From Pelagibius litoralis (GTDB lineage Bacteria > Pseudomonadota > Alphaproteobacteria > Kiloniellales > Kiloniellaceae): DNA of 64,000 bases. Positions 36,213 through 62,789 of this stretch are shown piece by piece. The notes beneath the pieces are model-generated. The model had not been told where the DNA came from. It ran no database searches and saw only the letters and a list, made by a program, of their open reading frames with translations. Within the stretch, counting starts at the first letter, position 1. The number at the start of each line of letters is the position of its first letter. The DNA lies in assembly GCF_011683915.1 (NCBI RefSeq), contig NZ_JAAQPH010000015.1, positions 1 to 64,000 of the forward strand. Reading direction: 5' to 3'. The position numbers and the translations under genes were made by a program.

Positions 36213-36341
36213 GTGAAAATCGAAACTCACGATCTTTCCGTTGTTCCCTGGAGCAGGGGATGGGGGCTGCGCCCGGTGGCCGGCCATGACCATGCTGCGA
36301 CCCGCATCAGTGCCTGCGCCTTTGGGTGGTCCGCCGCATGA
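36213..36341 (+). CDS. Small 42-residue ORF coupled to the ABC ATPase gene
   Basis: A GTG start at 36213 follows AGGGGGG (36201-36207) at good spacing. The frame runs 42 codons (MKIETHDLSVVPWSRGWG...) and ends TGA overlapping the ATPase ATG (ATGA, 36338-36341). The strong ribosome site and exact overlap suggest that it is translated and couples to the ATPase. The sequence resembles nothing I know and has no membrane segment. It could be a leader peptide, a small subunit or the last piece of a longer lost gene. Confidence 0.5.
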   Translation: MKIETHDLSVVPWSRGWGLRPVAGHDHAATRISACAFGWSAA

Positions 36342-37411
36342 CCGCCATCCTCGAACTGAAGAACGTCACCAAGCGCTACGGCGGCGACACCGCCCTCGAC
36401 GGTTTGTCTGTTACGCTGGAAGCCAATGAGTACATTTCACTTCTTGGTCCGAGCGGATCCGGGAAGTCGACTCTTTTGAGGGTCATTGCCGGCTTCGAGA
36501 AGCCCGATGCCGGCGAGGTGCTTCTGGAAGGGCGTTCCTTGGCCCAGGTGCCTGCCTACCGGCGGGGTATCGGCTTTGTGTCGCAGGGTTTCGCCCTCTT
36601 TCCGCATCTCTCGGTTTTTGAGAACGTGGCTTTCGGGTTGCGCAATCGCGAAGACGATCCCTTGCAGGACGCCGCAGAGCTTCGTCGCAGGGTCGATGAG
36701 ATGCTGGCGCTGGTCGGGCTTTCCGATCTGGGTGAACGTGGCATCGACCAGATTTCCGGCGGCCAGAAGCAACGGGTCGCCCTGGCGCGGACCCTGGTCG
36801 CCGACCCCAAGATTATCCTGCTCGATGAACCTCTCGGTGCCTTGGATGCCAACCTGCGGGCGCGCATGCGTGTCGAGCTCAGGCGGATTCGCCAGCAGCT
36901 TGGAATCACCTTCATGCATGTGACGGGTAACGAAGAAGAGGCGCTGGCGATGGGTGACAGGGTGGCCGTGCTCGACAGCGGCCGCCTGGCTCAGATCTCC
37001 GATCCCGATTCCGTCTATAACCGGCCGCAGTCTGCCCGCGTGGCGAAATTTCTCAACTGTTACAACATGTTCGAGGGGCGCCGTGATGAAGGGGGCGCTT
37101 TTCACGCCGGGGTCAGCAGCTTTGCCTGTTCGCCCGGTGCCGCAGCAGCAGGCGTGTATTGCGTGCGCTTCGACAAGATCAGGGTGGTTCCACTGCAAGG
37201 CCTGTCGGAAGACGGCGGCACCGGCGTCCGGGCGACTTTTATCACCAGCGAGTATGCGGGGCCGCGCATTACCTATTTCTTCCGCGGGGCTGACGGAAAG
37301 GTGCTTGAGGTGGAGTACCACCTGAGCCATCGGCGCCCCGATGAGTTCGCGGTCGGTGGCGACTACTGGCTGTCGTGGTCGCCCGACGAAGCGCTTGTGT
37401 ATTTCCAATGA
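36338..37411 (+). CDS. Polyamine-type ABC transporter ATP-binding protein with degenerate H-loop
   Basis: 357 residues from the ATG at 36338. Walker A is GPSGSGKSTLL, signature ISGGQKQRVALARTL and Walker B IILLDEPLGALD, as in PotA. Where PotA/MalK proteins read VTHDQEEAL, this one reads VTGNEEEAL, so the switch histidine is glycine. A C-terminal TOBE-like regulatory region follows (about 240-357). The second ATPase of the array, at 42208, keeps the histidine, so the two may form an asymmetric pair. It is the first full-length gene of the importer operon. Confidence 0.9.
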   Translation: MTAILELKNVTKRYGGDTALDGLSVTLEANEYISLLGPSGSGKSTLLRVIAGFEKPDAGEVLLEGRSLAQVPAYRRGIGFVSQGFALFPHLSVFENVAFGLRNREDDPLQDAAELRRRVDEMLALVGLSDLGERGIDQISGGQKQRVALARTLVADPKIILLDEPLGALDANLRARMRVELRRIRQQLGITFMHVTGNEEEALAMGDRVAVLDSGRLAQISDPDSVYNRPQSARVAKFLNCYNMFEGRRDEGGAFHAGVSSFACSPGAAAAGVYCVRFDKIRVVPLQGLSEDGGTGVRATFITSEYAGPRITYFFRGADGKVLEVEYHLSHRRPDEFAVGGDYWLSWSPDEALVYFQ

Positions 37412-37426
37412 GAGACTTCAAGGCTG

Positions 37427-38362
37427 ATGATGGACGCTAGCCGCGGTAACGATGTCCTGCCCGAAAGCGCAACGGCTGAAGAGGGTGTGAAGACAGAGTC
37501 CGGGGGCGGCGATTCCTCGGCACGCCGGATTACGGCGATGCTCATCGCGCCGGGAACGATCTGGATGCTGCTGTTTCTGGTCGTACCCATGCTGATGATG
37601 GTCTACGTCAGTTTCTGGACCCAGAAGACCTTCAGCATCGAACCGACCCTGACCGTGAAGAGCTGGGTTGCCTTCTTCTCCAGCGAGACCTATTTCGCCG
37701 CCCTGTTGAGAACGATCAAGATCTGGCTGATCGTGCTGGCGACGACTTTTGCGCTGGGTTATCCGACAGCGCTCTTCATCGGTCTCTTCATCAAGAACAA
37801 GACGGTCCAGACCATTGTCCTGGTGCTCTGCGTGGTACCCTTCTGGACCTCGTTCCTGATCCGTGTTCTGGCCTGGCGCCCCATGCTCGGCAAGGAAGGG
37901 GCGGTGAACATCGTTCTGGAGAAACTGGGTCTGATCGCCGAACCCATCGAGGTTCTGCTCTTCACCGAATTCAGCGTCGTCGTCGGTATGACCCAGATCT
38001 ACGTGGTCTTCATGGTCGGTCCGATCGCCTTCATGCTTTCGCGCATCGACCCCAGTCTGATTGAGGCCGCGCGCGATCTTGGCGCCGGCACCTGGCGTAT
38101 CTTCCGGACGATCATCTTTCCGCTCAGCTTGCCTGGGGTGGTGGTCGGGGCGATCTTCGTTTCGGTCATGGTCCTGGGCGAGTTTGCCACCTCGGCCGCG
38201 CTGTCGGGGCGCAAGGTCAATCTTCTGGGCAACATTATCGTGACCCAGGTGGGCTCCCTGAAGTGGGCCTTTGCCGCCGTCGCCGGTGTGATCCTCACTG
38301 CCGTCATGGCTATCGTCGTAGCGGTCCTGCTGCGCTTTGTGGATCTGAGGAAGGAGCTCTAG
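37427..38362 (+). CDS. Polyamine-type ABC transporter permease (PotB family)
   Basis: 311 residues with a long hydrophilic N-terminus (about 40 residues) and then six membrane segments. The EAA loop LIEAARDLGAGTWRIFRTII contacts the ATPases, and WTSFLIRVLAWRPMLG is a PotB/PotH hallmark. It begins 15 bases after the ATPase stop and forms the channel with the next protein. Confidence 0.92.
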   Translation: MMDASRGNDVLPESATAEEGVKTESGGGDSSARRITAMLIAPGTIWMLLFLVVPMLMMVYVSFWTQKTFSIEPTLTVKSWVAFFSSETYFAALLRTIKIWLIVLATTFALGYPTALFIGLFIKNKTVQTIVLVLCVVPFWTSFLIRVLAWRPMLGKEGAVNIVLEKLGLIAEPIEVLLFTEFSVVVGMTQIYVVFMVGPIAFMLSRIDPSLIEAARDLGAGTWRIFRTIIFPLSLPGVVVGAIFVSVMVLGEFATSAALSGRKVNLLGNIIVTQVGSLKWAFAAVAGVILTAVMAIVVAVLLRFVDLRKEL

Positions 38363-38365
38363 TCC

Positions 38366-39217
38366 ATGGAGAACCGCCCCTTCCTCCGCTCCGCCCTGGC
38401 GTTCTACACCGCCCTTTTTATCGGCTTTCTCTATGCGCCCTTCGTGGTGCTCGGGATCCTCAGCTTTCAGGCCGGGCCCGAAGGCGGGCCGCAGTTTCCG
38501 ATCACCGAGTGGTCGACTTACTGGTATGAGCATATCTTCGGGCTGACGCCGCCTTCGCGCATCGCCCCCCTGCCGATCGGCGAGGCGATGATCCGGTCGT
38601 TGACCCTGGCCTTTATGACCATGGTGACCTCGACCGTGCTCGGCACCATGACCGCCCAGGCTTTCCGCCGCCGCTTCAAGGGTTCCGGCTTCGTCTTCTA
38701 TCTGGTCGTGCTGGGTATGATCGTTCCCGGCGTTCTGGTCGGCCTCGGCCTGGCGCTGGTGGCCAACAACCTGGGCATCTCCCGCGCCTGGTGGGGCACC
38801 GCCTACGTGGCCCATGTTCTCTACACCTTTCCTTTTGCCTTCCTCGTCATGCTGGCGATCTTCAACCGTTTTGACAGATCGGTGGAGGAGGCGGCCTGGA
38901 GCCTTGGTGTGACGCCGATGCGCACCTTCAGAAAGGTCACCTTCCCGCTGATCTTTCCCGGCGTCCTCAGTTCCATGCTGTTTGCCTTCACGCTCAGTTA
39001 CGACGAGTTTCCGCGCACGCTTTTTGCCGCGGGCGCGGATCTGACCCTGCCGCTGGCGATCTACGGCACCTTCTCCGTTGAAATCCATCCGAACATCTTT
39101 GCCTTCGGTGTTCTGACGACGCTGTTCTCCTTCTCCATTCTCGCCGTCTACGGAATCCTGATGTCGCTTTCGGTGCGGCGCGCGAAGAAGGCCGCCATTC
39201 AGGAAGATATCCAATGA
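38366..39217 (+). CDS. Polyamine-type ABC transporter permease (PotC family)
   Basis: A 283-residue permease with six predicted membrane segments and the EAA loop VEEAAWSLGVTPMRTFRKVT. LSYDEFPRTLFAAG is the PotC-type segment near the C-terminus. AAGGAGCT precedes the start, and the gene overlaps the SDR gene by 4 bases. With the PotB-like subunit it makes the importer channel. Confidence 0.92.
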   Translation: MENRPFLRSALAFYTALFIGFLYAPFVVLGILSFQAGPEGGPQFPITEWSTYWYEHIFGLTPPSRIAPLPIGEAMIRSLTLAFMTMVTSTVLGTMTAQAFRRRFKGSGFVFYLVVLGMIVPGVLVGLGLALVANNLGISRAWWGTAYVAHVLYTFPFAFLVMLAIFNRFDRSVEEAAWSLGVTPMRTFRKVTFPLIFPGVLSSMLFAFTLSYDEFPRTLFAAGADLTLPLAIYGTFSVEIHPNIFAFGVLTTLFSFSILAVYGILMSLSVRRAKKAAIQEDIQ

Positions 39218-39960
39218 GGCCGCTGGAAGATCATGTCGCTGTGGTGACCGGTGCCGGCAACGGTATCGGCGAGGCCATCGCCCGGCGCTTGGTCGATGCC
39301 GGCGCCAAGGTCGTCGTCAACGATCTGCAGGCGGCGGCGGCTGAAAAGGTGGCTGCGGCCATAACCGCCGATGGCGGCGCTGCGACGGCCGTCGCGGGCG
39401 ACGTTTCCGCGCCCGAAGATGTGTCCAGGATCTTCGAGCATTGTACCGAGGCATTCGGCGACTGCAGCCTGCTTGTCAATAACGCCGGCATTGTCCAGCA
39501 GTCGCTTTTTGAGGACCTCTCCATCGAGGACTGGGACCGCATGATTGCCGTCCACCTGCGCGGCACCTTTCTCTGCGCCCGGGCCGTGATCGCCCCGATG
39601 CTGCAGCAGGGCGAGGGGGTGATCGTCAACATCGCCTCCCAGCTCGGGCAGATCGGCGGTGTCGAGCTGGTGCACTACAGCGCTGCCAAGGCGGGGATCA
39701 TCGGCCTCACCAAGGCGCTGGCGCGCGAGGTCAGCAAGCGCGGCGTGCGCGTCAACGCGGTGGCGCCGGGTCCGATCAATACCGATCTGGTGCGCAACCT
39801 TTCGGACGATTGGCGCCAGGCGAAGGCCGGGGAATTACCCCTTGGTCATTTCGGGGAGCCGCAGGACGTTGCCGACACGGTGGCCTTTCTGGCGTCGCCG
39901 GCGGCGCGGATATACGTCGGGCAGACACTGGGCCCGAACTCCGGGGACGTGATGCTTTAG
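39214..39960 (+). CDS. Short-chain dehydrogenase/reductase (FabG-like), first of two
   Basis: A 248-residue classical SDR with cofactor motif TGAGNGIGEAIARR, NNAG in LLVNNAGIVQ and catalytic residues in NIASQLGQIG and HYSAAKAGIIG. ATGA overlap with the permease shows coupling to the importer. The substrate is unknown; oxidation or reduction of a hydroxyl group on the imported compound is likely. It is related to, but clearly different from, the SDR that follows. Confidence 0.92.
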   Translation: MRPLEDHVAVVTGAGNGIGEAIARRLVDAGAKVVVNDLQAAAAEKVAAAITADGGAATAVAGDVSAPEDVSRIFEHCTEAFGDCSLLVNNAGIVQQSLFEDLSIEDWDRMIAVHLRGTFLCARAVIAPMLQQGEGVIVNIASQLGQIGGVELVHYSAAKAGIIGLTKALAREVSKRGVRVNAVAPGPINTDLVRNLSDDWRQAKAGELPLGHFGEPQDVADTVAFLASPAARIYVGQTLGPNSGDVML

Positions 39961-40028
39961 GGCGTAGTGTTTTCGGATGCAGGGCTCTCGGTCAGGGGCC
40001 GGGAACGCAGGAACAGGAAACAGGGTTG

Positions 40029-40799
40029 ATGAAGGCGATGGCAGATCAAGGGAGCGTACTCATCACCGGCGGCGGCATCGGCATCGGGCGCGCGACCGCC
40101 CTCGCTTTCGCCGATGCGGGCTACCACGTTATCGTGACCGACGTCCTCGACAAGCAGGGCGAGGCGGTTGTGGCGGAAATCAATGCCGGCGGCGGGGCTG
40201 CGCGCTTTCAGCATCTGGACGTCACCGACAGCAAAAACACCGACGCCGTGGTGGCCGATGCCGAAGCGCAGTTCGGTGCGCTCGATGTGGTGGTCGCCAA
40301 TGCCGGCATTGCCCACAGGGTTCCCCTGGCGCAGATGTCCGATGAGAAGTGGGACCACACCTTCGACGTCGACTTGAAAGGCATCATGCGCGTCGCGCGT
40401 GCCGCCGTACCGGCGATGCGGGCCAAGGGAAGCGGGGCCATCGTCGCGCTCTCCTCGATCATGGGGGTCGCCTACGGCTGGGACGAACACGTCCACTACT
40501 CCGCCGCCAAGTCAGGCGTTGTCGGGCTGGTGCGCGGCCTGGCGGTCGAACTGGCGCGGGACGGAATCCGGGTCAACGGCATTGCGCCGGGCTACATCCG
40601 CACCGCCCAGGCGCTTTCGGAAGAACATTCACTCGGGCCGGCCGGCCTGGAAAAGGCGGCCGAGTTCATCCCGATTGGCCGGGTTGGAGAACCCGATGAT
40701 ATTGCCGACGTCGCCGTTTTCTTGGCGTCGCATGCTGCCCGCTACATGACCGGGCAGACAGTTGTGGTCGATGGCGGCCTTCTTGTGGGGAGGTATTGA
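40029..40799 (+). CDS. Short-chain dehydrogenase/reductase (FabG-like), second of two
   Basis: About 256 residues; the ATG at 40029 is chosen, and an alternative at 40038 would be only slightly shorter. The motif is ITGGGIGIGRATALAF, with VANAG in VVVANAGIAH and catalytic residues in ALSSIMG and HYSAAKSGVVG. The longer open frame upstream has no homology. It lies between the first SDR and the binding protein of the same importer. Confidence 0.9.
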   Translation: MKAMADQGSVLITGGGIGIGRATALAFADAGYHVIVTDVLDKQGEAVVAEINAGGGAARFQHLDVTDSKNTDAVVADAEAQFGALDVVVANAGIAHRVPLAQMSDEKWDHTFDVDLKGIMRVARAAVPAMRAKGSGAIVALSSIMGVAYGWDEHVHYSAAKSGVVGLVRGLAVELARDGIRVNGIAPGYIRTAQALSEEHSLGPAGLEKAAEFIPIGRVGEPDDIADVAVFLASHAARYMTGQTVVVDGGLLVGRY

Positions 40800-40864
40800 T
40801 ACGCAGGAAGACTGTTTGGGCCATCAACCATTCGAACGAGAGTCATTGAAGGGAGACACTACAG

Positions 40865-42112
40865 ATGTCTGTGAAAAATCAGCACTCTCGCCGCGATGTT
40901 CTGTCTGCGGCGTTGAAGGGAACGGTTGCTACCACGGCGTTGGCTCTGGGCGGCGGAACGCCGTTCCTGAACTCGCGCAAAGCTTACGCGGCGGCTGCCG
41001 ATATTTCGAAGCAGCAGTTGCGGACCATCGGCCTGTCGGTGACGGTGCAGGAACGCATCCTCGACGATTTCAGGAACAAGTCCGGTGTCGGCGGCACCAC
41101 GGGAACGGCGGCGACTTTCCCCGACGCCCAGACCAAGATTCTGTCCGGCTCCAAGGATTTCGATTGCTGGGAAACCATTGGCGAGCGTCTGCCCGCGGTG
41201 GTGATGACCAACAATGTCGATCCGGTATCGACGTCGGATCTGAAGAACTGGGGCAATATCCGCGACACCTTCACCAAGGTGGATTCCAAGTGGGAGAAGA
41301 GGGCGCAGATCACCGGCCAGATCTGGGCCGACGATGCCCAGACCAAGCTCTATATGGTGCCGACGGTCTATAACTATGACTCGATCGGTTACAACCCTTC
41401 TGTGGTCAGCGACGAAGAGGCCAATACCTGGACCGCCATCTTCGACAAGAAGTGGAAGGGGCGCTCCGGCCTCAATACCGATCCCCTGATCGCCCTGGGT
41501 CAGGCCGTTCTGGCGATGAACAGCCTGGGTATGTCCGACGTGAAGAACCCCGGCAACCCGAACCAGGCGGAGATCGATGAGGCGATGAAGTTCCTCATCT
41601 CGAAGAAGAAGGAAGGCCAGTTCCGAGCGCTTTGGGGCGATTTCGGCGAGCTGGTGAACCTTCTGGCTTCTGGCGAGATGGTGGTCTGCGATGCTTGGCA
41701 ACCGGCGGTGATGGCGGTCAAGGCACAGGGCACGCCCTGCCGCTATGCGGTGCCGAAGGAAGGCTACCGCGCCTGGTCTATCGGTATCACCCCGATCGCC
41801 GGCACCCCCAACAAGGGTGCGGTCAACGCCTATGCGGATTACTGGTTGTCCGGGCCGCCGGCGATCACCGTTTCCGAGCAGGGCTACTACTCACCGACGA
41901 CCAACGTGAAGGATGCGATGGATCCCGACCGCTATGCCTTCTGGTACGAAGGCGCTCCATGGAAGGGTGCGCCCTCGCGCGGCATCGTCGAAGGCGATCT
42001 GCGTGACGGCGGATCCCTGGCCGAGCGTGCTTCCACCGTCGCCTACTGGCACCAGTGGCCTGACGAGTACGACTACGTCATTGCGAAGTGGGACGAGTTC
42101 CTCAACGCCTGA
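40865..42112 (+). CDS. Polyamine-type ABC substrate-binding protein, Tat-exported
   Basis: 415 residues with a twin-arginine signal (HSRRDVLSAALKGTVATTAL) ending near AYAAA. The mature part fits SBP family 1 (PotD/PotF-like), with MVPTVYNYDSIGYNP and CRYAVPKEGYRAW. It presumably serves the PotB/PotC-like permeases upstream. A paralogue without any signal is found at 60320. The ligand may be a small nitrogen compound rather than a polyamine, given the amidases and hydantoinases that follow. A 13-pair hairpin follows the gene. Confidence 0.9.
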   Translation: MSVKNQHSRRDVLSAALKGTVATTALALGGGTPFLNSRKAYAAAADISKQQLRTIGLSVTVQERILDDFRNKSGVGGTTGTAATFPDAQTKILSGSKDFDCWETIGERLPAVVMTNNVDPVSTSDLKNWGNIRDTFTKVDSKWEKRAQITGQIWADDAQTKLYMVPTVYNYDSIGYNPSVVSDEEANTWTAIFDKKWKGRSGLNTDPLIALGQAVLAMNSLGMSDVKNPGNPNQAEIDEAMKFLISKKKEGQFRALWGDFGELVNLLASGEMVVCDAWQPAVMAVKAQGTPCRYAVPKEGYRAWSIGITPIAGTPNKGAVNAYADYWLSGPPAITVSEQGYYSPTTNVKDAMDPDRYAFWYEGAPWKGAPSRGIVEGDLRDGGSLAERASTVAYWHQWPDEYDYVIAKWDEFLNA

Positions 42113-42143
42113 GGATTCTTTCCGCCGACTGAGCGAAGGGATT

Positions 42144-42207: not shown

Positions 42208-43317
42208 GTGGCATACGATCTGGAACTGATCGGCGTCGAGAAGGTTTACGACAACGGCACGCTGGCCGTTCGGAACTTCGATCTTCAAGTCGAAAAAGGC
42301 GAATTCATATCCTTCGTCGGGCCCTCCGGCTGCGGCAAGACGACGACGCTGCGCATGATCGCGGGTTTCGAATCGATCACCTCCGGCGAGGTGCGCATCC
42401 GTGGCGAACGCATCAACGAATTGCCGGCGGAACGGCGCCCGACATCGACGATTTTCCAGAACTACGCGCTTTTTCCGCATATGACCGTGCGCCAGAACAT
42501 CGAATACGGCTTGGCGGTAAAAGGCCTGCCGGCCGCCGCGCGGCACGAGAAGGCCGACAGCATCATGAGCAAGCTGGAACTGCTCGACGTCGCGGAGCGT
42601 CGCCACGAGGGCCTCTCCGGCGGTCAGCGCCAGCGCATCGCCCTGGCGAGGGGCCTGGTGGTGGAGCCCGACATTCTTTTGCTGGACGAGCCGCTGGGCT
42701 CCCTCGACGCAAACCTGCGCAAATCGATCCAGAACGAACTGAAGCTTCTTCAGCGCAATCTCGGCATCACTTTCGTCTTCGTCACCCATGCCCAGTCAGA
42801 GGCCCTGGTGCTGTCGGACCGGGTCATCGTGATGAACCGGGGCGAGGTGGAGCAGATCAGCGGACCCTACGAACTCTATACAAGACCGGAGACGAGCTTC
42901 GTCGCTCAGTTCATCGGGCGGAACACCAACATCCCCGGCCGCCTTCGGGGCCGGGACGGTGGCCAGGCCGTTGTCGATACCGCATATGGGGCGCTGAAGG
43001 GCCACCTCAACGACGGTTCGCTGGGTGAGGGCGCGGAGATCATCGCGGTGGTGCCGTCGGAAGCCATCGATGTGCATCCGCTGACGGCCGACCGCAACGC
43101 CCTGGCCGAACAGTACCGGGGCAATGTGATCGAGGGTCTGGTGGAGACCGCCGACGTCGTCGGTCATACCGTGTCCTATGTGATCAGGCTGCCGGATGGC
43201 CGGGAAGTGATGGTCGAGAGCCATACGGAGAAGTACCGCGAGGCCTTCGAGGCGGGTTCGTCCCAGGTCTATCTGTCGTGGCTGCCGAACGAGGCGACGG
43301 TGATCGCCGCCGCCTGA
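42208..43317 (+). CDS. Polyamine-type ABC transporter ATP-binding protein with intact H-loop
   Basis: 369 residues using the GTG at 42208 (GGAGGC nine bases upstream); a frame opening at 42142 would read through the hairpin. Walker A is GPSGCGKTTTLR, signature [15 protein letters not shown], Walker B ILLLDEPLGSLD and H-loop FVTHAQSEAL with the histidine present. A TOBE-like C-terminal region follows. It is the second ATPase of one importer that has only one pair of permeases, so it either pairs with the 36338 ATPase or replaces it. Confidence 0.91.
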   Translation: MAYDLELIGVEKVYDNGTLAVRNFDLQVEKGEFISFVGPSGCGKTTTLRMIAGFESITSGEVRIRGERINELPAERRPTSTIFQNYALFPHMTVRQNIEYGLAVKGLPAAARHEKADSIMSKLELLDVAERRHEGLSGGQRQRIALARGLVVEPDILLLDEPLGSLDANLRKSIQNELKLLQRNLGITFVFVTHAQSEALVLSDRVIVMNRGEVEQISGPYELYTRPETSFVAQFIGRNTNIPGRLRGRDGGQAVVDTAYGALKGHLNDGSLGEGAEIIAVVPSEAIDVHPLTADRNALAEQYRGNVIEGLVETADVVGHTVSYVIRLPDGREVMVESHTEKYREAFEAGSSQVYLSWLPNEATVIAAA

Positions 43318-49441: not shown

Positions 49442-49481
49442 TGGCGCAGCAACTCCGATCAGCCGATACAGGGACATGACG

Positions 49482-53582: not shown

Positions 53583-53868
53583 GGAGCGCCCCCGGGCCAG
53601 GCCCACGGTTCAGGTCGACGACGACAGCGTCAAGGTTACGGAGTGGCGCTTCCCGCCCGGTGCGGCCACCGGCTATCACCGGCACGAGATGGACTACGTC
53701 GTGGTGCCGATGACCACCGGCAACCTGCTGTTGAAGGGCCCTGAGGGCGAGTCGACGGCCAAGCTCACCGCCGGCCAATCCTACGCCCGCTCTGCCGGCG
53801 TCGAACATGACGTCATCAACGCCAACGAATACGACTTCGTTTTCGTCGAAGTCGAGATCAAGAAATAA
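53575..53868 (+). CDS. Small cupin domain protein
   Basis: 97 residues from the ATG at 53575 (GGAGG six bases upstream), overlapping the bioY stop by 8 bases. A single cupin barrel: motif 1 in [17 protein letters not shown] gives two histidines and a glutamate, and motif 2 supplies a histidine in [10 protein letters not shown]. It probably holds a metal ion. Comparable small cupins accompany many amidohydrolase clusters, where they act as isomerases or regulators. No specific activity is recognisable. Confidence 0.85.
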
Positions 53869-54891: not shown

Positions 54892-55224
54892 ATGTGCAGC
54901 CTATGCGGACTTCTGGGAGAGGATCACTGGACCGACATGTCGGCCAGCCCGGAAACCTTTGGCGGGCAGAGCGCCGTCAGGCCGCGGCGGCAGGAACGCT
55001 TTCGCCGGGTGAAACTGATCAACGAGATCCTGAAGATCTATGCCCTGCGCCTCGATGACTGGCAGGGCCAATCGTTCATTCTGAGCAGCCGCACCGGCAA
55101 AACCGAAATCGTCGACAACCTGATGGCGGTCTGGCCGGCGGCGGAGCAGATGATCGGGCGCCCGCTCGATCCGACGGACCCGGCGGTTCTGGCACGCCTT
55201 CGCAACCAGACGGCGGGGCAGTAA
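54892..55224 (+). CDS. Small conserved protein with an N-terminal CxxC
   Basis: 110 residues opening MCSLCGLLGEDHW, where a CxxC could hold zinc or another metal. The remainder includes RRVKLINEILKIYALRLDDW and TGKTEIVDNLMAVWPAAEQM, mostly helical. I do not know a named function. It is 3 bases from a CobW-type GTPase, and the pair could act together in metal delivery to a nearby enzyme. The ribosome site is weak (GGGAAAG). Confidence 0.75.
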   Translation: MCSLCGLLGEDHWTDMSASPETFGGQSAVRPRRQERFRRVKLINEILKIYALRLDDWQGQSFILSSRTGKTEIVDNLMAVWPAAEQMIGRPLDPTDPAVLARLRNQTAGQ

Positions 55225-55227
55225 GCG

Positions 55228-56292
55228 ATGACCGGCGCGTCTGATCATATTCCGGTCAACATCATCACCGGCTTTCTGGGCAGCGGGAAAACCACGCTGC
55301 TGCAGCGCCTGCTGACCTCCGACGCCTTTGCCGATACGGCCGTTCTGATCAACGAATTCGGCGAAATCGGCTTGGATCACCACCTTCTTGAGGAAATCGA
55401 CGAGAACACCCTGCTGCTGCAGAGCGGTTGCATCTGCTGCACCATCAGGGGGGATCTGAAAGACGCGATCCGCGATCTTTACTCACGCCGGGAATGCGGT
55501 GAGATTCCAGCCTTTCGGCGCCTGGTGATCGAAACCACGGGCCTGGCCGATCCGGCGCCGATTTTGTCGACCATCACCTCGGAAAGCGTGATCCGTCATC
55601 ACTTCCGCCTTGGCAATGTGATCGCCACGGTCGATGCGGTGAACGCCCGGCTGCACTTGCGCCGGCAGCCGGAATCGGTGAAGCAGATCGCGGTCGCCGA
55701 CCGGATCGTCCTGACCAAGACCGACCTGGCCAAGCCGGGCAAAGTGAAGAAGGCCCGCGAGGCGATCAGGCGGATCAACCCCATGGTGCCGGTGATCGAG
55801 GCCGCTGACGGCCCGGTCGATCCCGCCCTGCTGTTGGCCCAGGACGTTCATGACGAAAATCACAAGCTACGGGAAATAGAGCTTTGGCTTGAGGCGAGCC
55901 GGCATGACGAGGGCGATGATCGTGGCAAGCCGCATCGTCATGACGTGAACCGTCACGACAAGCGGATTACGGCATTCGCCCTGACTTTCGACAAACCGAT
56001 GGATTGGACCGCCTTCGGCATCTGGCTGACCATGCTCCTGCAAAGCAGGGGCGAGGACGTGCTGCGGGTGAAGGGCATACTCAATGTCGTGGGGGTGGCC
56101 ACGCCGGTGGTGATTCACGGCGTTCAGCATATCGTGCATTCCCCTGTGCACATGAAGAACTGGCCGGACGACGACAGGCGGTCGCGCATCGTCTTCATCG
56201 TCCGGGATATCGCCAAGGCGGAGATCGCCGATTCGCTCTCCGCCTTCAACGCTTTGGCAGGCGATCTCGATAGAAAAAACGACGCGGCGTAA
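55228..56292 (+). CDS. CobW family G3E GTPase, putative metallochaperone
   Basis: 354 residues with Walker A GFLGSGKTTLL, the CobW metal motif SGCICCTIRGDL (Cys68, Cys70, Cys71) and the guanine site VLTKTDLA. A histidine/aspartate-rich stretch near residues 222-245 (RHDEGDDRGKPHRHD) and a C-terminal CobW domain follow. Members insert zinc, iron or cobalt into partner enzymes. Its position between the deacetylase and hydantoinase genes suggests service to a metal-dependent hydrolase of this cluster. Confidence 0.92.
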   Translation: MTGASDHIPVNIITGFLGSGKTTLLQRLLTSDAFADTAVLINEFGEIGLDHHLLEEIDENTLLLQSGCICCTIRGDLKDAIRDLYSRRECGEIPAFRRLVIETTGLADPAPILSTITSESVIRHHFRLGNVIATVDAVNARLHLRRQPESVKQIAVADRIVLTKTDLAKPGKVKKAREAIRRINPMVPVIEAADGPVDPALLLAQDVHDENHKLREIELWLEASRHDEGDDRGKPHRHDVNRHDKRITAFALTFDKPMDWTAFGIWLTMLLQSRGEDVLRVKGILNVVGVATPVVIHGVQHIVHSPVHMKNWPDDDRRSRIVFIVRDIAKAEIADSLSAFNALAGDLDRKNDAA

Positions 56293-56340: not shown

Positions 56341-58101
56341 ATGGCGAAGAAAGTCGACCCGATTACACTATCAGTGGTTCGTGGCGTTCTGGAGACGACA
56401 CAGCGCGAGATGACCGTGGCGCTGGAAAACACCGCAAGGTCGAGCGTCTTCAATCTGGCGCACGACTATTCCAATGCGATCTTCAATCACGTCCCGGAGA
56501 TGATCATGCAGGGGCAGGATATTCCCATCCACCTCGGCTCGCTGATCCCGGCGATGAAATGCGTTGCCGGCTACTTCGGTGACGACATCCACCCCGGCGA
56601 CGTGCTGATGCACAACGATCCGGCCTACATGGGCTCGCACATGATCGACACCTGCATGTACAAGCCGGTGTTCTACAAGGGCGAGCTGGTTTTCTGGGCC
56701 GTCTGCAAGGGCCATCTTACCGATATCGGCGGCCCGGTACCCGCGGGCTACAACCCGGATGCCAAGGAGCTCTATGCGGAGGGCCTGCGGATTCCCCCGG
56801 TCAAGATTTTCGACAAGGGTGTGAAACGCTACGACGTGATGAACATGATCCTGACGAACCTGCGGGCGCGCCGGGACCAGGAAGGCGACTTCAACGCGCA
56901 GCTGGGTGCCGTGCAGGTCGGTGAGCGCAACCTCATCGCCCTGCTCGACAAGTACGGCCTGGAGGAAGTGCGCGCCTGTATCGACGAGCTGATGGGCATG
57001 GCGGACCGCCAGATGCGGACGCTGATGAAAAAAGTGCCGGACGGGACCTATAGCGGAACGGCCATCGTCGAAGACGCCGGCCATGGACTCGGCGACATGG
57101 AGATCACCGCGACGGTGACCATCGAGGATGACAACTGCCACATCAAGATCGATAGCCCGCCCCAGGTGCCCTACTTCATCAATTCCTACGAGGGCAATTC
57201 CTATTCCGGCGTTTATCTGGGTGTGATGATGTTCGCGCAGCTGCCGCCGCCCTATAACGAGGGCCTCTACCGCTGCGTATCGGTCGACATGGGCCCCAAG
57301 GGCACCCTTTGCAACGCAAAGGAACCGGCACCCCACATGAACTGTACGACGACCCCGATGGAAACCCTGACCGATGCGGTTCGCCTGGCCTTCGAGCAGG
57401 CGGTGCCGGATCTCGTCTCGGCCTCCTGGGGCCATGCCAACGGCTGCAACATCGCCGGTTGGGACACCCGCCACGATGAGGAGTACGTCACCATGGTGCT
57501 GGCCTCCATCATCTCCGGGGCCGGTGCCACGCCGCAGCAGGACGGCTGGCACGCCTGCGGGCCGGAGTGCTGCTTCGGGGCGCTGACCTCCGGCGATGTC
57601 GAGCTGCTCGAATACTCCTACCCCATCATCATTCACCGCTACAGCCTGATGACCGATTCTGGGGGTGCCGGCAAATATCGCGGCGGCTCCGGCACCTGTT
57701 GGGAGGTCGAGCCGATCGACAAACCGATGACCTTCATAACCTTCGGCGAGGGGCGGCGTATTCCAGCCGTCGGCGCGGCGGGGGCGAAGTCTCAGATGAC
57801 CGAACCCAAGGTCGGGCGCATCGAGATCAGCCGCGAAGACAGGGTCGATCTGATCAAGACCAACGTCATTGAGACGATCAATCCGGGCGAGCGGGCGGCC
57901 AACATGAACCCGGGCGGCGGCGGCTACGGCAATCCCTTTGAGCGGCCGGTCGAGAAGGTTCTGCACGACGTGAAAAACCAGCTCGTGTCGATCGAAGGCG
58001 CGCGCCAGGACTACGGCGTCGTCATCAAGGATGCGGAAGGGCTTGAGATCGACCGGGCGGCGACCGACAGCCTGCGGGCCGATCTGGTGGCGGCGCAATG
58101 A
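56341..58101 (+). CDS. hyuB: Hydantoinase subunit B, second pair
   Basis: A 586-residue HyuB-type subunit. It opens VDPITLSVVRGVLETTQREM and has GDVLMHNDPAYMGSHMIDTC, a conserved metal-ligand segment, and GGAGKYRGGSGTCWEVEP. It differs substantially from the first HyuB (46895). In this pair B precedes A, the reverse of the first pair, which argues for separate recruitment rather than recent duplication. Confidence 0.93.
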   Translation: MAKKVDPITLSVVRGVLETTQREMTVALENTARSSVFNLAHDYSNAIFNHVPEMIMQGQDIPIHLGSLIPAMKCVAGYFGDDIHPGDVLMHNDPAYMGSHMIDTCMYKPVFYKGELVFWAVCKGHLTDIGGPVPAGYNPDAKELYAEGLRIPPVKIFDKGVKRYDVMNMILTNLRARRDQEGDFNAQLGAVQVGERNLIALLDKYGLEEVRACIDELMGMADRQMRTLMKKVPDGTYSGTAIVEDAGHGLGDMEITATVTIEDDNCHIKIDSPPQVPYFINSYEGNSYSGVYLGVMMFAQLPPPYNEGLYRCVSVDMGPKGTLCNAKEPAPHMNCTTTPMETLTDAVRLAFEQAVPDLVSASWGHANGCNIAGWDTRHDEEYVTMVLASIISGAGATPQQDGWHACGPECCFGALTSGDVELLEYSYPIIIHRYSLMTDSGGAGKYRGGSGTCWEVEPIDKPMTFITFGEGRRIPAVGAAGAKSQMTEPKVGRIEISREDRVDLIKTNVIETINPGERAANMNPGGGGYGNPFERPVEKVLHDVKNQLVSIEGARQDYGVVIKDAEGLEIDRAATDSLRADLVAAQ

Positions 58102-58182
58102 CGTTGCACCAGGCAGTTACAACAAAACCGACAGGCAGGGATCAAGGCCCGGGCTGGAATCCGGTAAGGGGAGGGTTTGGTT

Positions 58183-60261
58183 ATGCGTACTAAATATCGT
58201 CTGGGTGTCGATGCGGGCGGCACGTTCACGGACTTCGTGCTGGCCGGTGATGCCGGAAATGTCAGCCTTTTCAAGACCCTGTCCACACCTGAGGATCCGA
58301 CGAAGGCGATTGAGAACGGGCTGTCGCTGATGGCCGAAGGTCTCGGCCTGAAGCAGGAAGAGATCATTTCCCAGTGCGATCTCTGCATCAACGGCACGAC
58401 CGTTGGCCTCAATGCCCTGATCCAGCACAAGGGTGCGAAAACCGGCCTGATCTGCACGGCGGGGCATGAAGACTCCTTGGAGATCCGGCTCGGCCACAAG
58501 GAAGACGGCTATCGCTACGATGCCGAATACCCGCCGGCACAGATGCTGGTGCCGCGCTACCTTCGCCGCGGCGTTCGCGAACGCGTGCTGTCGAACGGCA
58601 GTGTAAGGACCGCACTCGTCGAAGAAGATGTACGGGCGGCCTGTACCCTCTTCCTGGAAGAGGGAGTGGAGGCGGTTGCCATATCCCTGCTGTGGTCGGT
58701 GCTCAATCCGGCGCATGAGCGGCGTGCGGCGGAGATCGTCCGCGAGATGATGCCGGGGAGCTTCCTGACGGTCGGGAGTGAGCTCTACCCCCAGGTCCGC
58801 GAGTACACGCGCACCTCGACGGCGGTGACCAATGCTTATCTCGGGCCGACCCTGAAGCGCTACGTGGACTCGGTGGACCGCTATTTCGCCGATCACGGCG
58901 CCAAGTATCCGGTGCGTTATTTTCAGTCGAATGGCGGCCTTGCCATCGGCGGTGCGATGACCGACCGCTCGGTTTACGCCATCAACTCCGGCCCGGCTTC
59001 TGCGCCGCAGGCGGGGCTCTTCGTCTCCGATCCCTTCGACCAGAAGAACGTCATCACCGTCGATATGGGTGGCACCTCCTTCGACATAACCCTGACCAAG
59101 GACGGCAACACCAACCTCAACAAGAACATCGATTTCCTGCGCTACCGCATCGGGGTGCCGATGATCCAGGTGGAAACTCTGGGGGCCGGCGGCGGCTCGA
59201 TCGGCTGGATCGACGATATGGGGCTTCTGCAGGTGGGACCGCAGAGCGCCGGGGCCGATCCGGGCCCTGTCTGCTACGGCCAGGGAGGTACCGAGCCGAC
59301 CGTCACCGATGCCAACATCGTGCTGGGATACGTCAATCCCGGCGCGCTGCTCGGCGGCCGCATGCAGTTGAACCGTGACAAAGCCTATGCTGCCATAAAG
59401 CAGCGTGTCGCCGATCCCCTGGAGATTTCCGTCGAGCGGGCCGCCTATGGTATCTTCACCATCGTGAACAACAACATGGTCAACGGTATTCGCCGGGTGT
59501 CGGTGGAACGCGGCTTCGATCCGCGCGATTTCGTGCTTGTCGCGGCCGGCGGCGCGGGGGCGGCCCACATCACGGCCCTGGCGCGCGAGATGGGGATCGA
59601 CAGCGTCCTGGTGCCCAAGCTGGCCTCGGGCCTCTGCGCCTTTGGCCAGGTCATATCCGACGTGAAGTACAACTATATGGCCTCGGCACCCCATCGCTTC
59701 GAGGGTGACGCTACGTTCGGGCAGTTGAACGACCTCTTTGCAGAGATTGAAGAGCAGGGGGTCGCCCATCTGGAAGCCGATGGTTTTGCACGTGCCGACA
59801 TCGACGTCAGGCGCAGCATGGATATGCGCTACGTCGGCCAGGTCCATGAATGTACCGTCGATATCGGAAATTTTGATATCACCGGTGAAACCGCCGATCA
59901 GGTGAAGGAGGCTTTTCACCAACGCCATGAGCAGCTCTACACTTATTCCGAACGCCACAATGCGGTGGAGGTGGTAAATATCGAAAGCACGATCTACGGC
60001 CGTGTCGAAAAGCCGAACCCGCCGCATCTGGGCGATGGTGCCGGTGCTGCAGGCGCCCTGAAATCCCAGCGGCCGATGATCTTTTCCAACGATGGCAAGG
60101 CTGTCGACTGTCCGGTGTATGACGGCGAGAGGCTCGGGGCCGGAGACGAAGTCGACGGACCGGCGGTGATCGAGGAGGTTACCACGACGATTGTGATCGA
60201 ACCGCACTGGCAGGCCCTGTTGCATGAGAGCGGTTCCTACGTGCTCAGACGAAAGGCTTGA
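58183..60261 (+). CDS. hyuA: Hydantoinase/oxoprolinase subunit A, second pair
   Basis: 692 residues from the ATG at 58183 (AAGGGGAGG upstream). The ATP-binding start is LGVDAGGTFTDFVLAGD, and later motifs are VDMGGTSFDITLTKDG, GAGGGSIGWIDDMG and GPQSAGADPGPVCY. It is the partner of the B subunit upstream. ATP-dependent ring opening of a hydantoin or lactam, or carboxylation of a ketone, is expected; the two pairs may act on successive substrates or on different ones. Confidence 0.93.
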   Translation: MRTKYRLGVDAGGTFTDFVLAGDAGNVSLFKTLSTPEDPTKAIENGLSLMAEGLGLKQEEIISQCDLCINGTTVGLNALIQHKGAKTGLICTAGHEDSLEIRLGHKEDGYRYDAEYPPAQMLVPRYLRRGVRERVLSNGSVRTALVEEDVRAACTLFLEEGVEAVAISLLWSVLNPAHERRAAEIVREMMPGSFLTVGSELYPQVREYTRTSTAVTNAYLGPTLKRYVDSVDRYFADHGAKYPVRYFQSNGGLAIGGAMTDRSVYAINSGPASAPQAGLFVSDPFDQKNVITVDMGGTSFDITLTKDGNTNLNKNIDFLRYRIGVPMIQVETLGAGGGSIGWIDDMGLLQVGPQSAGADPGPVCYGQGGTEPTVTDANIVLGYVNPGALLGGRMQLNRDKAYAAIKQRVADPLEISVERAAYGIFTIVNNNMVNGIRRVSVERGFDPRDFVLVAAGGAGAAHITALAREMGIDSVLVPKLASGLCAFGQVISDVKYNYMASAPHRFEGDATFGQLNDLFAEIEEQGVAHLEADGFARADIDVRRSMDMRYVGQVHECTVDIGNFDITGETADQVKEAFHQRHEQLYTYSERHNAVEVVNIESTIYGRVEKPNPPHLGDGAGAAGALKSQRPMIFSNDGKAVDCPVYDGERLGAGDEVDGPAVIEEVTTTIVIEPHWQALLHESGSYVLRRKA

Positions 60262-60319
60262 CGATGCAGGCGGTAACCCGGAGCGATCGAAGGCGCGCGC
60301 CTTCTGAGAAGAGGGGCGG

Positions 60320-61573
60320 GTGGTAAAGCCGCGCGAAAAGAGCAAACCGGTAGCGCCGAACGTCCGCACGGCAGGCAAACCGGTCCTTCGGGTGCTGGGG
60401 ACCGGCGTGACGCTGATCGAGCAGGTAAGAGAAAAGGCCGAAGAAGATCTTGGCATCGTACTGGAGTATGAAGCCCTTGATGGTGTAGCGGCGCAGGCAA
60501 AAGGGGTGATGCGGCCGGACTGCTACGACGTCTACGATCAATGGTTTCATAGTGTTGAGCTGTTGTGGCTTTCCGGCGCCATACAACCCATCGATGTCAG
60601 CCGCATCGATCTCTGGAACGAGGTCAACACCCTGGCCAAGGAAGGGCGGCTTACCCCTGAGGCGCGCTTCGGGCATGGCGACAATCCGGTGAACCGGCTG
60701 TATGTCCATCCGGGACGCGGGCTCGGGCCGTCGCCCAACGGCAAGATCAGTATGCTGCCGGGGGCCCATAACGTAGACAGCTTCGGCTACAACCTGGAAG
60801 AAGTGGCGGCCGGCGTTCCTTACGAAACGGAGAGTTGGGGCTGGTTGCTGGACGAGCGCTGGCGCGGCAAGGTCGCGCTGGTCAACGACCCGGCGATCGG
60901 TGTCATCGATGCCGCGCTCGCCGCCGAGGCACAGGGCCTGATGGCGTTCAACGATATCGGAAACATGACGCTGCAGGAGATCGACTGCCTCATCGATATC
61001 CTGCTGGAGAGAAAGAAGACCGGATACTTCAAGGCGTTTTGGAATTCCTTCGCCGAAGCCGACGAGCTTATGGCCCGGCGTGATGTCGCGATAGAAAGCA
61101 TGTGGTCGCCAAGTGTGATGCGACTCAAAGGGCGTGGCATACCGGTTCGCTACGCGGCCCCCAAGCAAGGCTATCGCGCCTGGCAGGGCGGGATGTGCAT
61201 CTCTTCACGCACAGAAGGGCGGACGCTTGAGGCGGTGTACGAATACCTCAACTGGTGGATGTCCGGCTGGGCCGGTGCGATGATGGCGCGGCAGGGATAT
61301 TACTTTTCGGTTCCGGAGCGGATTCGCGAACATCTTTCGGATGACGAGTGGGACTATTGGTACATGGGCAAAGTCGCCGCCTGCGATCTGCCGGGGCCGG
61401 ATGGCAAGGTCGTCGTGCGGGCCGGCGAATCCCGGAACGGTGGGTCCTATTGGCAGCGTTTCGCCAATATCGGTGTCTGGAACTCCATCATGGATGAGCA
61501 TAACTATCTTGTCCGACGCTGGCAGGAACTCACGGCCGGGAATGGCACGTCAGGGTTCCGCCGGAAAGCATAG
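60320..61573 (+). CDS. PotD-like substrate-binding-protein paralogue without signal peptide
   Basis: 417 residues with a GTG start at 60320 behind GAGGGG; an in-frame TGA at 60305-60307 excludes a longer N-terminus. The protein starts MVKPREKSKPV, with no Sec or Tat signal, yet the body matches the binding protein at 40865 (VRYAAPKQGYRAW versus CRYAVPKEGYRAW, and shared HNYLVRRWQEL-type ends). It is therefore a cytoplasmic version of a periplasmic receptor. It could sense or carry the imported compound, or the exported form may have been lost. A 20-codon frame starting at 60264 overlaps its start and may couple translation. Confidence 0.85.
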   Translation: MVKPREKSKPVAPNVRTAGKPVLRVLGTGVTLIEQVREKAEEDLGIVLEYEALDGVAAQAKGVMRPDCYDVYDQWFHSVELLWLSGAIQPIDVSRIDLWNEVNTLAKEGRLTPEARFGHGDNPVNRLYVHPGRGLGPSPNGKISMLPGAHNVDSFGYNLEEVAAGVPYETESWGWLLDERWRGKVALVNDPAIGVIDAALAAEAQGLMAFNDIGNMTLQEIDCLIDILLERKKTGYFKAFWNSFAEADELMARRDVAIESMWSPSVMRLKGRGIPVRYAAPKQGYRAWQGGMCISSRTEGRTLEAVYEYLNWWMSGWAGAMMARQGYYFSVPERIREHLSDDEWDYWYMGKVAACDLPGPDGKVVVRAGESRNGGSYWQRFANIGVWNSIMDEHNYLVRRWQELTAGNGTSGFRRKA

Positions 61574-61638
61574 CCGTTTTTCCAAGTTCCCGATAAAGGG
61601 CTGTTTCCAATCGGCAATATTTGCTGGAATGGTCCCCT

Positions 61639-61700
61639 AGAGCAGATCCCGGTCGGATGGAATCGCCGAAGGCGACCCATCGACCGGGTGAATCTGCTCT
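61639..61700. repeat. Long palindromic repeat, copy type A
   Basis: AGAGCAGAT (61639-61647) pairs with ATCTGCTCT (61692-61700). CCCGGTCG pairs with CGACCGGG inside it, and a small TCGCC-GAA-GGCGA hairpin sits at the tip. The form matches the dispersed intergenic palindromes common in alphaproteobacterial genomes. Confidence 0.75.
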
Positions 61701-61714
61701 AACTGTTTGATGGC

Positions 61715-61774
61715 GATCGGATTCACATGTTTTGGCGCAACCACGAAGTGGTTCCGTCAAAACATGATCCGATC
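61715..61774. repeat. Long palindromic repeat, copy type B
   Basis: GATCGGAT and ATCCGATC form the outer arms, CATGTTTTG and CAAAACATG the middle, and AACCAC-GAA-GTGGTT the tip. It starts 14 bases after the type A palindrome. Together they form a tandem element, probably mobile in the past and now acting as a message 3' end. Confidence 0.75.
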
Positions 61775-61928
61775 TAGACAAGAATGGGGCCGATGGTGGG
61801 GAAGCGCGTTTTCTGCCGGCATTGGACTTGCCTGCCTTCCAGAACCCCGTTTCAAGTTTTGACAGTCAGCCCTGCCCGCGCGTAAGCGGGTGCCGGTACG
61901 TCGTGAGAACCCGAAGAAAGACCTGTTC

Positions 61929-62789
61929 ATGAAGCTATCCCCCCAGAATTCGCCCCCGTCAGATGCGGCGGAACGCCGGTCCATTCGCCCGGTGGTCTGC
62001 TACCCGATAGACAACCTGCCCGCCTTCGACAGCGCGCTTTATGGGCGCGCAAGGCAGGAACTCACCCTGATTCATGAGGTCTTTGTCCAGCCGAGAGACG
62101 CGGCCACGTTCGAGGTGCCGTCGGGGCATTTTTTCAGGATCGTCTGTTCGGATGGCTCACAGGTCGGCGATCTGAACCTGTGGAATGCCAACGACCTTGG
62201 CGAGCGCTTCTTCAGCGGCAAAACCAGGGCCCTGCATGGTACCCATGTGAGTGTCGGGGACAGGCTTTGGAGCAATCTTCCCCATCTGCGTCCCATGGCG
62301 ACAATCACGCAGGATACGCTGGACTGGTATGGATGGGATGGCGATGGCGGCAGCGTGCATGACGTCATCGGCACGCGCTGCGACCCCTACACGAACAAGC
62401 TGCTGAACGGAACCGACTACCATCACTGTTGTCACTCCAACTTCACCAGGGCCTTGGCCGCGAAGACCGGGCTGGCGTTGGACGAGGCCGAGAAGCACGT
62501 CCATGACGTCCTCAATGTCTTCATGTGCACCGGATTTACGGCCGATACCCATCAGTACTTCATGAAGGCCAGTCCGGCACGAACCGGCGACTATCTTGAG
62601 TTCTTTGCTGAGATGGATCTGCTTGGGGCGCTTTCCGCCTGTCCCGGTGGCGACTGCGGTACCAGCCATTCCAGCGAGGAAGCGCGTTGTTTCCCGCTGC
62701 GCGTTGAGGTCTACAAAGCCAAAGCCGAGGCGCTGGCGGGCCTGCCGATGTCGGCGCTGCCGGCCTATTCCGGCAGCCACGGGGTTTGA
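61929..62789 (+). CDS. DUF1989 / urea carboxylase-associated family protein
   Basis: About 286 residues from the ATG at 61929; a GTG at 61890 in frame is an alternative, and neither has a strong ribosome site. The cysteine-bearing segments GTRCDPYTNKLL, YHHCCHSNFTRAL and GGDCGTSHSSEE mark the DUF1989 metal site. Two such proteins together form carboxyguanidine deiminase in guanidine-degrading operons, and others accompany urea carboxylase. Only one is present here. Coming after the split biotin carboxylase genes, it suggests processing of a carboxylated amidine or ureide, but this is inference. Confidence 0.85.
   Translation: MKLSPQNSPPSDAAERRSIRPVVCYPIDNLPAFDSALYGRARQELTLIHEVFVQPRDAATFEVPSGHFFRIVCSDGSQVGDLNLWNANDLGERFFSGKTRALHGTHVSVGDRLWSNLPHLRPMATITQDTLDWYGWDGDGGSVHDVIGTRCDPYTNKLLNGTDYHHCCHSNFTRALAAKTGLALDEAEKHVHDVLNVFMCTGFTADTHQYFMKASPARTGDYLEFFAEMDLLGALSACPGGDCGTSHSSEEARCFPLRVEVYKAKAEALAGLPMSALPAYSGSHGV

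Follow-up and report, generated by a model that had tools for sequence, protein, structure and literature searches.

The window analysed here is a stretch of 64,000 nucleotides from Pelagibius litoralis (contig NZ_JAAQPH010000015.1, positions 1 to 64,000 of the forward strand). Its main feature is an array of 23 plus-strand genes that forms one run at 36341–61573, with intergenic gaps of at most 101 bp according to the open reading frame (ORF) listing, translations and family scans. The genes encode, in order, ATP1, PermA, PermB, SDR1, SDR2, SBP1, ATP2, an amidase, HyuA1, HyuB1, PxpA, BCCP, BC, PxpB, PxpC, BioY, a cupin, a NodB-fold enzyme, HYP, CobW, HyuB2, HyuA2 and SBP2. An earlier note on this DNA had proposed a contiguous plus-strand array for cyclic amides, and the contiguity was borne out. 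Its family calls also hold in our scans, these being a Pot-type ATP-binding cassette (ABC) importer, an amidase, two HyuA/HyuB pairs, PxpA (LamB/YcsF), a biotin carrier (BCCP), biotin carboxylase (BC), a PxpB-like CT_C_D and a PxpC-like CT_A_B protein, BioY, a NodB-fold protein, CobW and DUF1989. The inventory was incomplete in that two short-chain dehydrogenases (SDR1 and SDR2), the second ABC ATPase, the cupin, HYP, the solute-binding protein SBP2 and a divergent GntR-family gene were missed. The array is a genuine, conserved mosaic locus, and its most unusual parts, SBP2 and HYP, are ones absent from that first list.

Enzyme families encoded by the array

The NodB-fold enzyme (53885–54805) is the proposed cyclic imidase of the array. 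It matches Pfam Polysacc_deac_1 and aligns without gaps to Helicobacter pylori HP0310 (PDB 3qbu) over residues 1–293 at 524 bits, a second comparison giving 557 bits over the same residues. Seven residues (D12, D14, H86, H90, W127, W128 and H247) are invariant in four homologues and all are present in 3qbu; in the HP0310 structure they are metal, catalytic or pocket-loop residues, according to the sections available of PMC3084791. By homology, the enzyme belongs to a family with a known imidase, HxnM of Aspergillus nidulans. As given in excerpts of PMC9304392, the closest solved homologue of HxnM is 3qbu, and a cyclic imide hydrolase homologue from P. putida shares 64% identity with HxnM. HxnM opens 3-hydroxypiperidine-2,6-dione, an assignment made from deletion strains and metabolite profiles, and acts after the SDR HxnW and before the amidase HxnN (same excerpts of PMC9304392). 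Immediately downstream in the array lie HYP (54892–55224), a 110-residue MCxLCG protein conserved next to the imidase, and a CobW-type GTPase (55228–56292), assigned by family scan and proposed to be a metallochaperone.

The window clusters an SDR, the proposed imidase and an amidase, the three reaction classes of the fungal hxn lower pathway. SDR1 (39214–39960) and SDR2 (40023–40799) were assigned by family scan. The amidase-signature amidase (43353–44723), a proposed half-amidase, scores 602 bits with NF004766 (cut-off 559), matches Pfam Amidase, and has amidase and fatty acid amide hydrolase as its structure matches. The importer consists of ATP1, an ABC ATPase of the Pot class (36341–37411), the permeases PermA (37427–38362) and PermB (38366–39217), the solute-binding protein SBP1 (40865–42112), in which a twin-arginine (Tat-type) leader was read, and the second ATPase, ATP2 (42214–43317). 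The places of both ATPases and both permeases are conserved. The description of this importer as polyamine-type in the earlier note is correct as to structural class, but none of its components, ATP1 included, reached a Pot equivalog cut-off in the family scan.

Two pairs of HyuA/HyuB subunits flank the central part of the array. HyuB2 (56341–58101) and HyuA2 (58180–60261) score 1129.4 and 1260.2 bits, respectively, and pass the curated cut-offs for the caprolactamase beta (CapB) and alpha (CapA) families (NF050156/NF050157, 1000 each). HyuA2 contains DAGGTFTD and DMGGT, which correspond to the phosphate-binding motifs DxGGTxTD and DxGGT as given in the part of PMC8453981 at hand. HyuA1 (44774–46873), by family scan the large subunit of an ATP-dependent lactamase/hydantoinase, and its partner subunit HyuB1 (46895–48664) score 599.6 and 264.8 bits, below the CapA/CapB cut-offs of 1000.

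Between these pairs lies a block of biotin-related genes. The PxpA-type LamB/YcsF hydrolase (48710–49441) scores 297.2 bits, above the NF003814 subfamily cut-off of 226. It is followed by BCCP, an 80-residue biotin carrier (49476–49718), BC (49744–51120; NF009471, 758.5 bits, cut-off 686), the PxpB-like (CT_C_D; 51128–52003) and PxpC-like (CT_A_B; 51993–52964) carboxyltransferase (CT) subunits, and the biotin importer BioY (52992–53582; Pfam BioY, 136 bits, cut-off 25). The biotinyl-lysine of BCCP lies in a VMK(S/T) motif in all 22 aligned homologues that cover the site. PxpB and PxpC both fall short of the 5-oxoprolinase cut-offs (74.4 bits against 145.55 for TIGR00370, and 204.7 bits against 500 for NF045499). 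The urea carboxylase model TIGR02712 gives 525.1 bits for BC, 222.7 for PxpC, 114.8 for PxpB and 23.3 for BCCP. Because this model outscores the 5-oxoprolinase models, whose cut-offs are missed, PxpB and PxpC are likened to urea carboxylase, and the four proteins, BC and BCCP included, have the appearance of a urea-carboxylase-like enzyme split into subunits beside a LamB/YcsF hydrolase. No fused BC-CT-BCCP protein exceeded the TIGR02712 cut-off of 1303.85, the domains being encoded by separate genes. We did not find the PxpA-BCCP-BC-PxpB-PxpC arrangement discussed in the available portions of PMC8453981 or PMC13274462.

Conservation and modular organization

We surveyed 58 genomes around and including that of the window. 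The imidase gene is found in nine of these (E 1e-60 or better), PxpC in 25 (E 1e-40) and HyuB2 in seven (E 1e-150); HyuB2 and the imidase are both present in six genomes, and in all six the two genes lie within approximately 5 kb of each other. All 23 genes of the array occur in the same order in G035 and G047, genomes from a different family of the same taxonomic order, and this recurrence indicates that the array is more than a chance assembly. A genome of the same genus, G006, has the downstream half of the array on a contig that starts inside BC and gives no BioY match, and G050 holds pieces of it. The small cupin (53575–53868), assigned by family scan, is conserved in G006, G035, G047 and G050, and a membrane transporter gene precedes SBP2 in G035, G047 and G050 (Mem_trans in the L005 copy). 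The GntR-family regulator gene (34722–35867, minus strand), identified by family scan, is divergent from the array in the window, and homologues are divergent from ATP1 in G035, G047 and G048 and also in Rhizobiaceae. In G035 a flavin oxidoreductase gene is inserted between HyuB1 and PxpA. Flavin oxidoreductases of the old-yellow-enzyme type lie inside the cluster at L005 (3509–4771) and L078 (8803–9978; this copy was scanned).

A broader comparison was made with 87 imidase loci, which comprise the 80 most query-like of 566 confirmed matches together with seven plasmid loci, and which do not represent a random sample. Three more distant imidase relatives (L088, L090 and L091) and a piece of the window itself (L085) were left out. 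Homologues were counted with identity thresholds (at least 44% for SDR1 and SDR2), the counts changing from 64 to 62 for SDR1, 64 to 63 for SDR2, 64 to 60 for SBP2, 39 to 34 for PermA and 43 to 34 for ATP1; many loci end at contig edges, so that the partner counts are lower bounds. On this basis CobW accompanies the imidase at 83 loci, HYP at 77, SDR2 at 63, SDR1 at 62, the amidase at 61, and SBP2 and GntR at 60 each. PermA and ATP1 are each found at 34, PxpC at 29, a major facilitator superfamily (MFS) transporter at 28, a HyuA1-like gene at nine, HyuA2 and HyuB2 at five each, the cupin at two and BioY at one. Both SDRs together with an amidase or asparaginase are found at 56 loci; an asparaginase is present at four of the 26 loci that have no amidase (L010, L012, L046 and L073). 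At some loci (e.g. L008, L016, L024, L040 and L076) the imidase, HYP and CobW are all that is present of the array set, and this trio is the least variable part of the set.

These distributions resolve the array into three modules. Module I consists of the importer, SDR1, SDR2, SBP1, ATP2, the amidase, the imidase, HYP, CobW and SBP2; in several genomes it is accompanied by GntR but by neither of the other modules. An MFS transporter takes the place of its ABC importer at 28 of the 87 loci (Pseudomonas, Pantoea, Klebsiella, other gammaproteobacteria, and Burkholderia L075). At L086 a mobilizable Klebsiella pneumoniae plasmid carries the core module, flanked on each side by insertion sequences, and at L089 the module is on pRL12 of Rhizobium johnstonii 3841. 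Module II is PxpA-BCCP-BC-PxpB-PxpC, with or without BioY, and also stands alone; module III is HyuB2-HyuA2. Modules I and II are paired in Rhizobiaceae, with module II on the opposite flank in Chthonobacter (L028) and Aureimonas (L073), and modules I and III are paired in G048 and Sinorhizobium RAC02. All three are found together in Shinella sumterensis (L004) and Mesorhizobium (L022), as well as at L078, where PxpB and PxpC are diverged (33 and 38% identity) and SBP2 is lacking. In G025 a distance of 17 kb separates modules II and III. The comparison of Pxp neighborhoods suggested in the earlier note thus has a divided outcome: the block does split into separate operons (G017, G025, G048 and G053), yet its parts are found joined again in various arrangements, and this pattern speaks for related functions and against chance.

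Twelve stand-alone copies of module II were fetched from the same taxonomic order. BioY is the next gene in eight of these, and a LysR match lies nearby in nine. Having BioY at its side is thus common for the biotin block in this order and is not specific to the array. Three of the stand-alone blocks, those of G017, G025 and G048 (together L132, L134 and L135), have a molybdenum-hydroxylase-like gene after PxpA-BCCP-BC-PxpBC-BioY (the G025 copy, L132, was scanned), a neighbor suggesting that an N-heterocycle is first hydroxylated to give a lactam, which the biotin enzyme then opens. In a PxpC tree of 45 rows the imidase-linked label requires three changes, at least two of them forced by strong branches; the rows, chosen for their imidase linkage or taken from close relatives, are not an unbiased sample, and the tree includes G006 twice (L098 and L119) and one extreme branch (L078).

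HYP, SBP2 and the boundaries of the array

HYP begins with MCxLCG, and fourteen of its positions (C2, C5, G6, G9, W13, R33, E35, R39, Q58, T68, G69, W81, D93 and P94) are kept in 27 sequences. It has no Pfam or NCBIfam match at E 0.001, and its structural model (pLDDT 77, with low confidence for the first 30 or so residues) has no PDB fold match at E 0.001 or better. A HYP match is missing at ten of the 87 loci; at two of these, L086 and L087, a hypothetical protein is annotated in the same place, the one in L087 beginning MMCGICG. In a sample of 150 genomes of the phylum, HYP is found in three, the imidase is found in the same three, and the two genes are adjacent. HYP and CobW probably act jointly to supply metal to the imidase or to assemble it.

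SBP2 (60320–61573) differs from SBP1 in having no recognisable leader. Its model has a solute-binding fold (pLDDT 88) with PotF/PotD as nearest structures, and in the Pseudomonas rows shown the protein starts a few residues ahead of the mature core. A combined twin-arginine and hydrophobicity test detected a leader in 57 of 59 Tat-bearing rows and in one of 66 leaderless rows, the exception being L030, whose signal comes from an upstream extension that is taken as non-coding. A plain hydrophobicity threshold is a poor test for leaders, since it was passed by three of 33 SBP1 sequences with evident leaders and by four of 62 SBP2 rows, three of these four being other, Tat-bearing binding proteins. 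Against a Sec leader stand only the short N-termini and the low hydrophobicity. SBP2 is present at 26 of the 28 loci with an MFS importer, the exceptions (L068 and L072) being short contigs. The retention of SBP2 where an MFS transporter replaces the ABC importer indicates that it is not the receptor of the importer at those loci.

Elsewhere in the phylum, the closest relatives of SBP2 that were fetched have Tat-type leaders. A profile search of the 150 genomes found related proteins in 33, that of the window included. Eight of the 23 other high scorers (>500 bits) were fetched, and all eight have twin-arginine leaders and are 51–57% identical; no imidase was found in their genomes at 1e-80. 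Homologous kinase-like ORFs occur at six of these eight loci and are directly adjacent in the four looked at; two that were scanned contain HisKA, HATPase_c and two receiver domains. At L149, L150, L153 and L161 the Tat-leader solute-binding protein adjoins a hybrid histidine kinase-like gene (two scanned), and these pairs are apparent receptor-kinase systems. A MerR-receiver protein is encoded next to the pair in L150 and approximately 3.5 kb away in L161. In a 125-row tree, in which 66 rows are leaderless and 59 carry a Tat leader, a single change of state suffices, and the leaderless branch has an SH-aLRT of only 71. This tree carries a long-branch warning, L005 and L146 were left out, and five rows were labelled by leader reading (three leaderless, two Tat); in addition, the leaderless rows were fetched by nearness to an imidase gene, so that part of the association between leader loss and the cluster follows from how the rows were sampled.

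DUF1989, at 61926–62789, had been counted as an array member in the earlier note, and this was not borne out. The gene begins 352 bp past SBP2, with an inverted repeat between the two. It was not found in G006, G035 or G047, the three relatives with sequence fetched well beyond SBP2, and homologues occur at none of the 87 imidase loci under the identity thresholds. With the relatives' arrays ending without it, a role for DUF1989 was dropped, and the protein is probably not part of the array. DUF1989 closely resembles the protein of PDB 3di4, an uncharacterised DUF1989 protein according to its deposition. A urea or guanidine theme for the array is likewise not supported. The intergenic region at 61570–61890 has the look of a dispersed repeat element, with the inverted repeat at 61726–61766 and a palindrome-like stretch before it recognized by eye. 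Further downstream a second amidase-signature gene (62818–63921, minus strand) matches its family only from about profile position 80 and may be 5'-truncated or shifted. The region 30700–34665, just upstream of the array, contains a sugar-type ABC transporter distinct from that of the array, as well as a gene resembling those of zinc alcohol dehydrogenases.

Function of the locus and comparison with known systems

In our view the array is likely to be a catabolic mosaic that serves small cyclic imides and lactams. The imide part of this reading is based on the inclusion of the imidase HxnM in the NodB-fold family and on the linkage of the SDRs and amidase to the imidase gene; the lactam part is based on the passing of the caprolactamase cut-offs by HyuB2 and HyuA2 and on the co-location of the HyuB2 and imidase genes in every genome having both. 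Each reaction in the scheme that follows is assigned from the family to which the enzyme belongs. The ABC importer would bring in a ring compound, with Tat-type SBP1, two permeases and two ATPases. SDR1 and SDR2 would oxidise hydroxyl groups, converting a hydroxy-lactam to an imide in the manner of fungal HxnW, the NodB-fold metalloenzyme would open the imide to a half-amide, and the amidase would release a dicarboxylate and ammonia. Lactams that require energy for opening would be handled by HyuB2-HyuA2 of the caprolactamase family, by HyuA1-HyuB1 and by the split biotin enzyme. For this last enzyme, BC would charge BCCP-biotin using ATP and bicarbonate, the urea-carboxylase-like PxpB/PxpC pair would carboxylate the ring nitrogen, and PxpA would hydrolyse the activated ring, with BioY supplying biotin. 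CobW and HYP would metallate or assemble the imidase, and SBP2 would bind a ligand in the cytoplasm. The earlier note envisaged uptake, then ring opening driven by ATP or biotin, and deamidation at the end; this broad scheme agrees with the comparative evidence, and the oxidative step proposed for the two SDRs had been missed.

Several observations weigh against this reading. Modules II and III are optional, with PxpC at 29, HyuB2 at five and BioY at one of the 87 imidase loci, and the imidase and PxpC are on different contigs in four of the nine genomes that have both (G017, G027, G048 and G053). A recognisable SBP2 is missing from 27 of the 87 loci. In the phylum sample, the imidase loci of G075 and G151 gave no leaderless SBP2; close to the imidase of G075 there is a binding protein with a twin-arginine leader. 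For HP0310 itself, activity with acetylated xylan, chitin and pNP-acetate has been reported (excerpts of PMC3688963), and this would fit a deacetylase or an esterase. If the NodB-fold enzyme were a carbohydrate or peptidoglycan deacetylase, as its match to Polysacc_deac_1 and these reports would allow, the locus would serve an N-acetylated amino sugar. We regard this as very improbable: the frequent partners of the imidase gene are amidase and SDR genes, and the accessible portion of the HP0310 structural work describes a protein that is inactive with typical polysaccharides and lacks both a groove for such polymers and a signal peptide, and judges a small molecule the likelier substrate (PMC3084791). 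If gene transfer had by chance assembled unrelated operons for nitrogen scavenging in a single lineage, this would account for the modules being apart in relatives and for the carriage of the core module on plasmids. Such an origin is highly unlikely given the identical order of 23 genes in two genomes of another family, the recurrence of the I+II and I+III pairings in different orders, and the occurrence of modules II and III at 17 kb from each other in G025.

Other alternatives concern the substrate. The same gene set fits a maleimide or succinimide, such as might arise in tetrapyrrole breakdown, with an optional flavin reductase to reduce the double bond, SDRs acting on hydroxyl groups of side chains, and the imidase and amidase producing a C4 diacid. 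Genes of the asparaginase family, a C4 half-amide type, lie near the imidase in L010, L012, L046 and L073 and near the more distant imidase relatives of L090 and L091, but we think such a substrate unlikely. The locus could also be the bacterial counterpart of the lower hxn pathway and act on one natural compound, a hydroxy-piperidone that would be oxidised to 3-hydroxyglutarimide and then opened and deamidated to 2-hydroxyglutarate. The SDR, imidase and amidase reaction types coincide with those of HxnW, HxnM and HxnN, a flavin oxidoreductase of the HxnT (old yellow enzyme) class is inside the cluster in G035/L005 and L078, and in Shinella (L001) the amidase is closely followed by a gene with the annotation L-2-hydroxyglutarate oxidase, which has a homologue in Sinorhizobium RAC02 (L002). 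However, the flavoprotein and the hydroxyglutarate oxidase are each found at only two of the 87 loci, the best match in the window genome to the L078 flavin oxidoreductase is 33% identical and on another contig, and the fungal and bacterial nicotinate routes are called convergent in the excerpted text of PMC9304392, so that this single-compound route appears decidedly unlikely.

Within the preferred reading of a mosaic imide and lactam locus, a more far-reaching version can be formulated, which we offer tentatively as possible, if doubtful. The locus would represent a widespread undescribed imide pathway in which SBP2 arose from a hybrid histidine kinase receptor exported by Tat, with one loss of the leader, and now serves as an intracellular sensor or buffer of an intermediate; HYP and CobW would be a metal-delivery pair dedicated to the imidase, and HP0310 would be a small-molecule imidase. 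The single enzymes come from known families, and the combination, HYP and the leaderless SBP2 look undescribed. No description of the gene combination was found in the open-access literature searched (one library), nor was a role for HYP or leaderless SBP2 found in the family scans, the fold search or that literature. With the small MCxLCG protein HYP and the leaderless SBP2, the analysis brings to light two proteins that recur, along with a catabolic module that is present in rhizobia, Pseudomonas, Pantoea and a Klebsiella plasmid. It also makes the true substrate of the NodB-fold family, HP0310 included, testable, and gives the biotin-dependent LamB/YcsF enzyme a likely setting in lactam opening.

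The array shares features with several characterized systems and departs from each. HyuA2 and HyuB2 resemble the caprolactamases CapAB of Pseudomonas jessenii and OplAB of P. putida in exceeding the family cut-offs and in having the expected motifs; unlike these, the HyuB2-HyuA2 pair sits within a probable imide locus. The biotin block is similar to the 5-oxoprolinase PxpABC in its subfamily-level PxpA and in the order PxpA ... PxpB-PxpC, and differs in the low scores of PxpB and PxpC and in the insertion of BCCP and BC. With urea carboxylase, a fused BC-CT-BCCP protein, it shares the domain set BC, CT_A_B, CT_C_D and BCCP, whereas in the array the enzyme is split over four genes and joined to a PxpA hydrolase. 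The NodB-fold enzyme shows full-length gapless homology to HP0310/HpPgdA (PDB 3qbu and 4ly4) with the same active-site residues, although HP0310 is annotated as a peptidoglycan deacetylase and the gene context in the window points to a small cyclic imide. Likeness to the A. nidulans hxn lower pathway extends to the three reaction classes of HxnW, HxnM and HxnN within one regulon, and to the structural family of HxnM, for which 3qbu is the closest solved homologue (PMC9304392, as excerpted) as it is for the NodB-fold enzyme. The bacterial system differs in that the window genome has no close HxnT-class flavin reductase, and in that the array adds an ABC importer, ATP- and biotin-dependent lactamase-type enzymes, CobW, HYP and SBP2.

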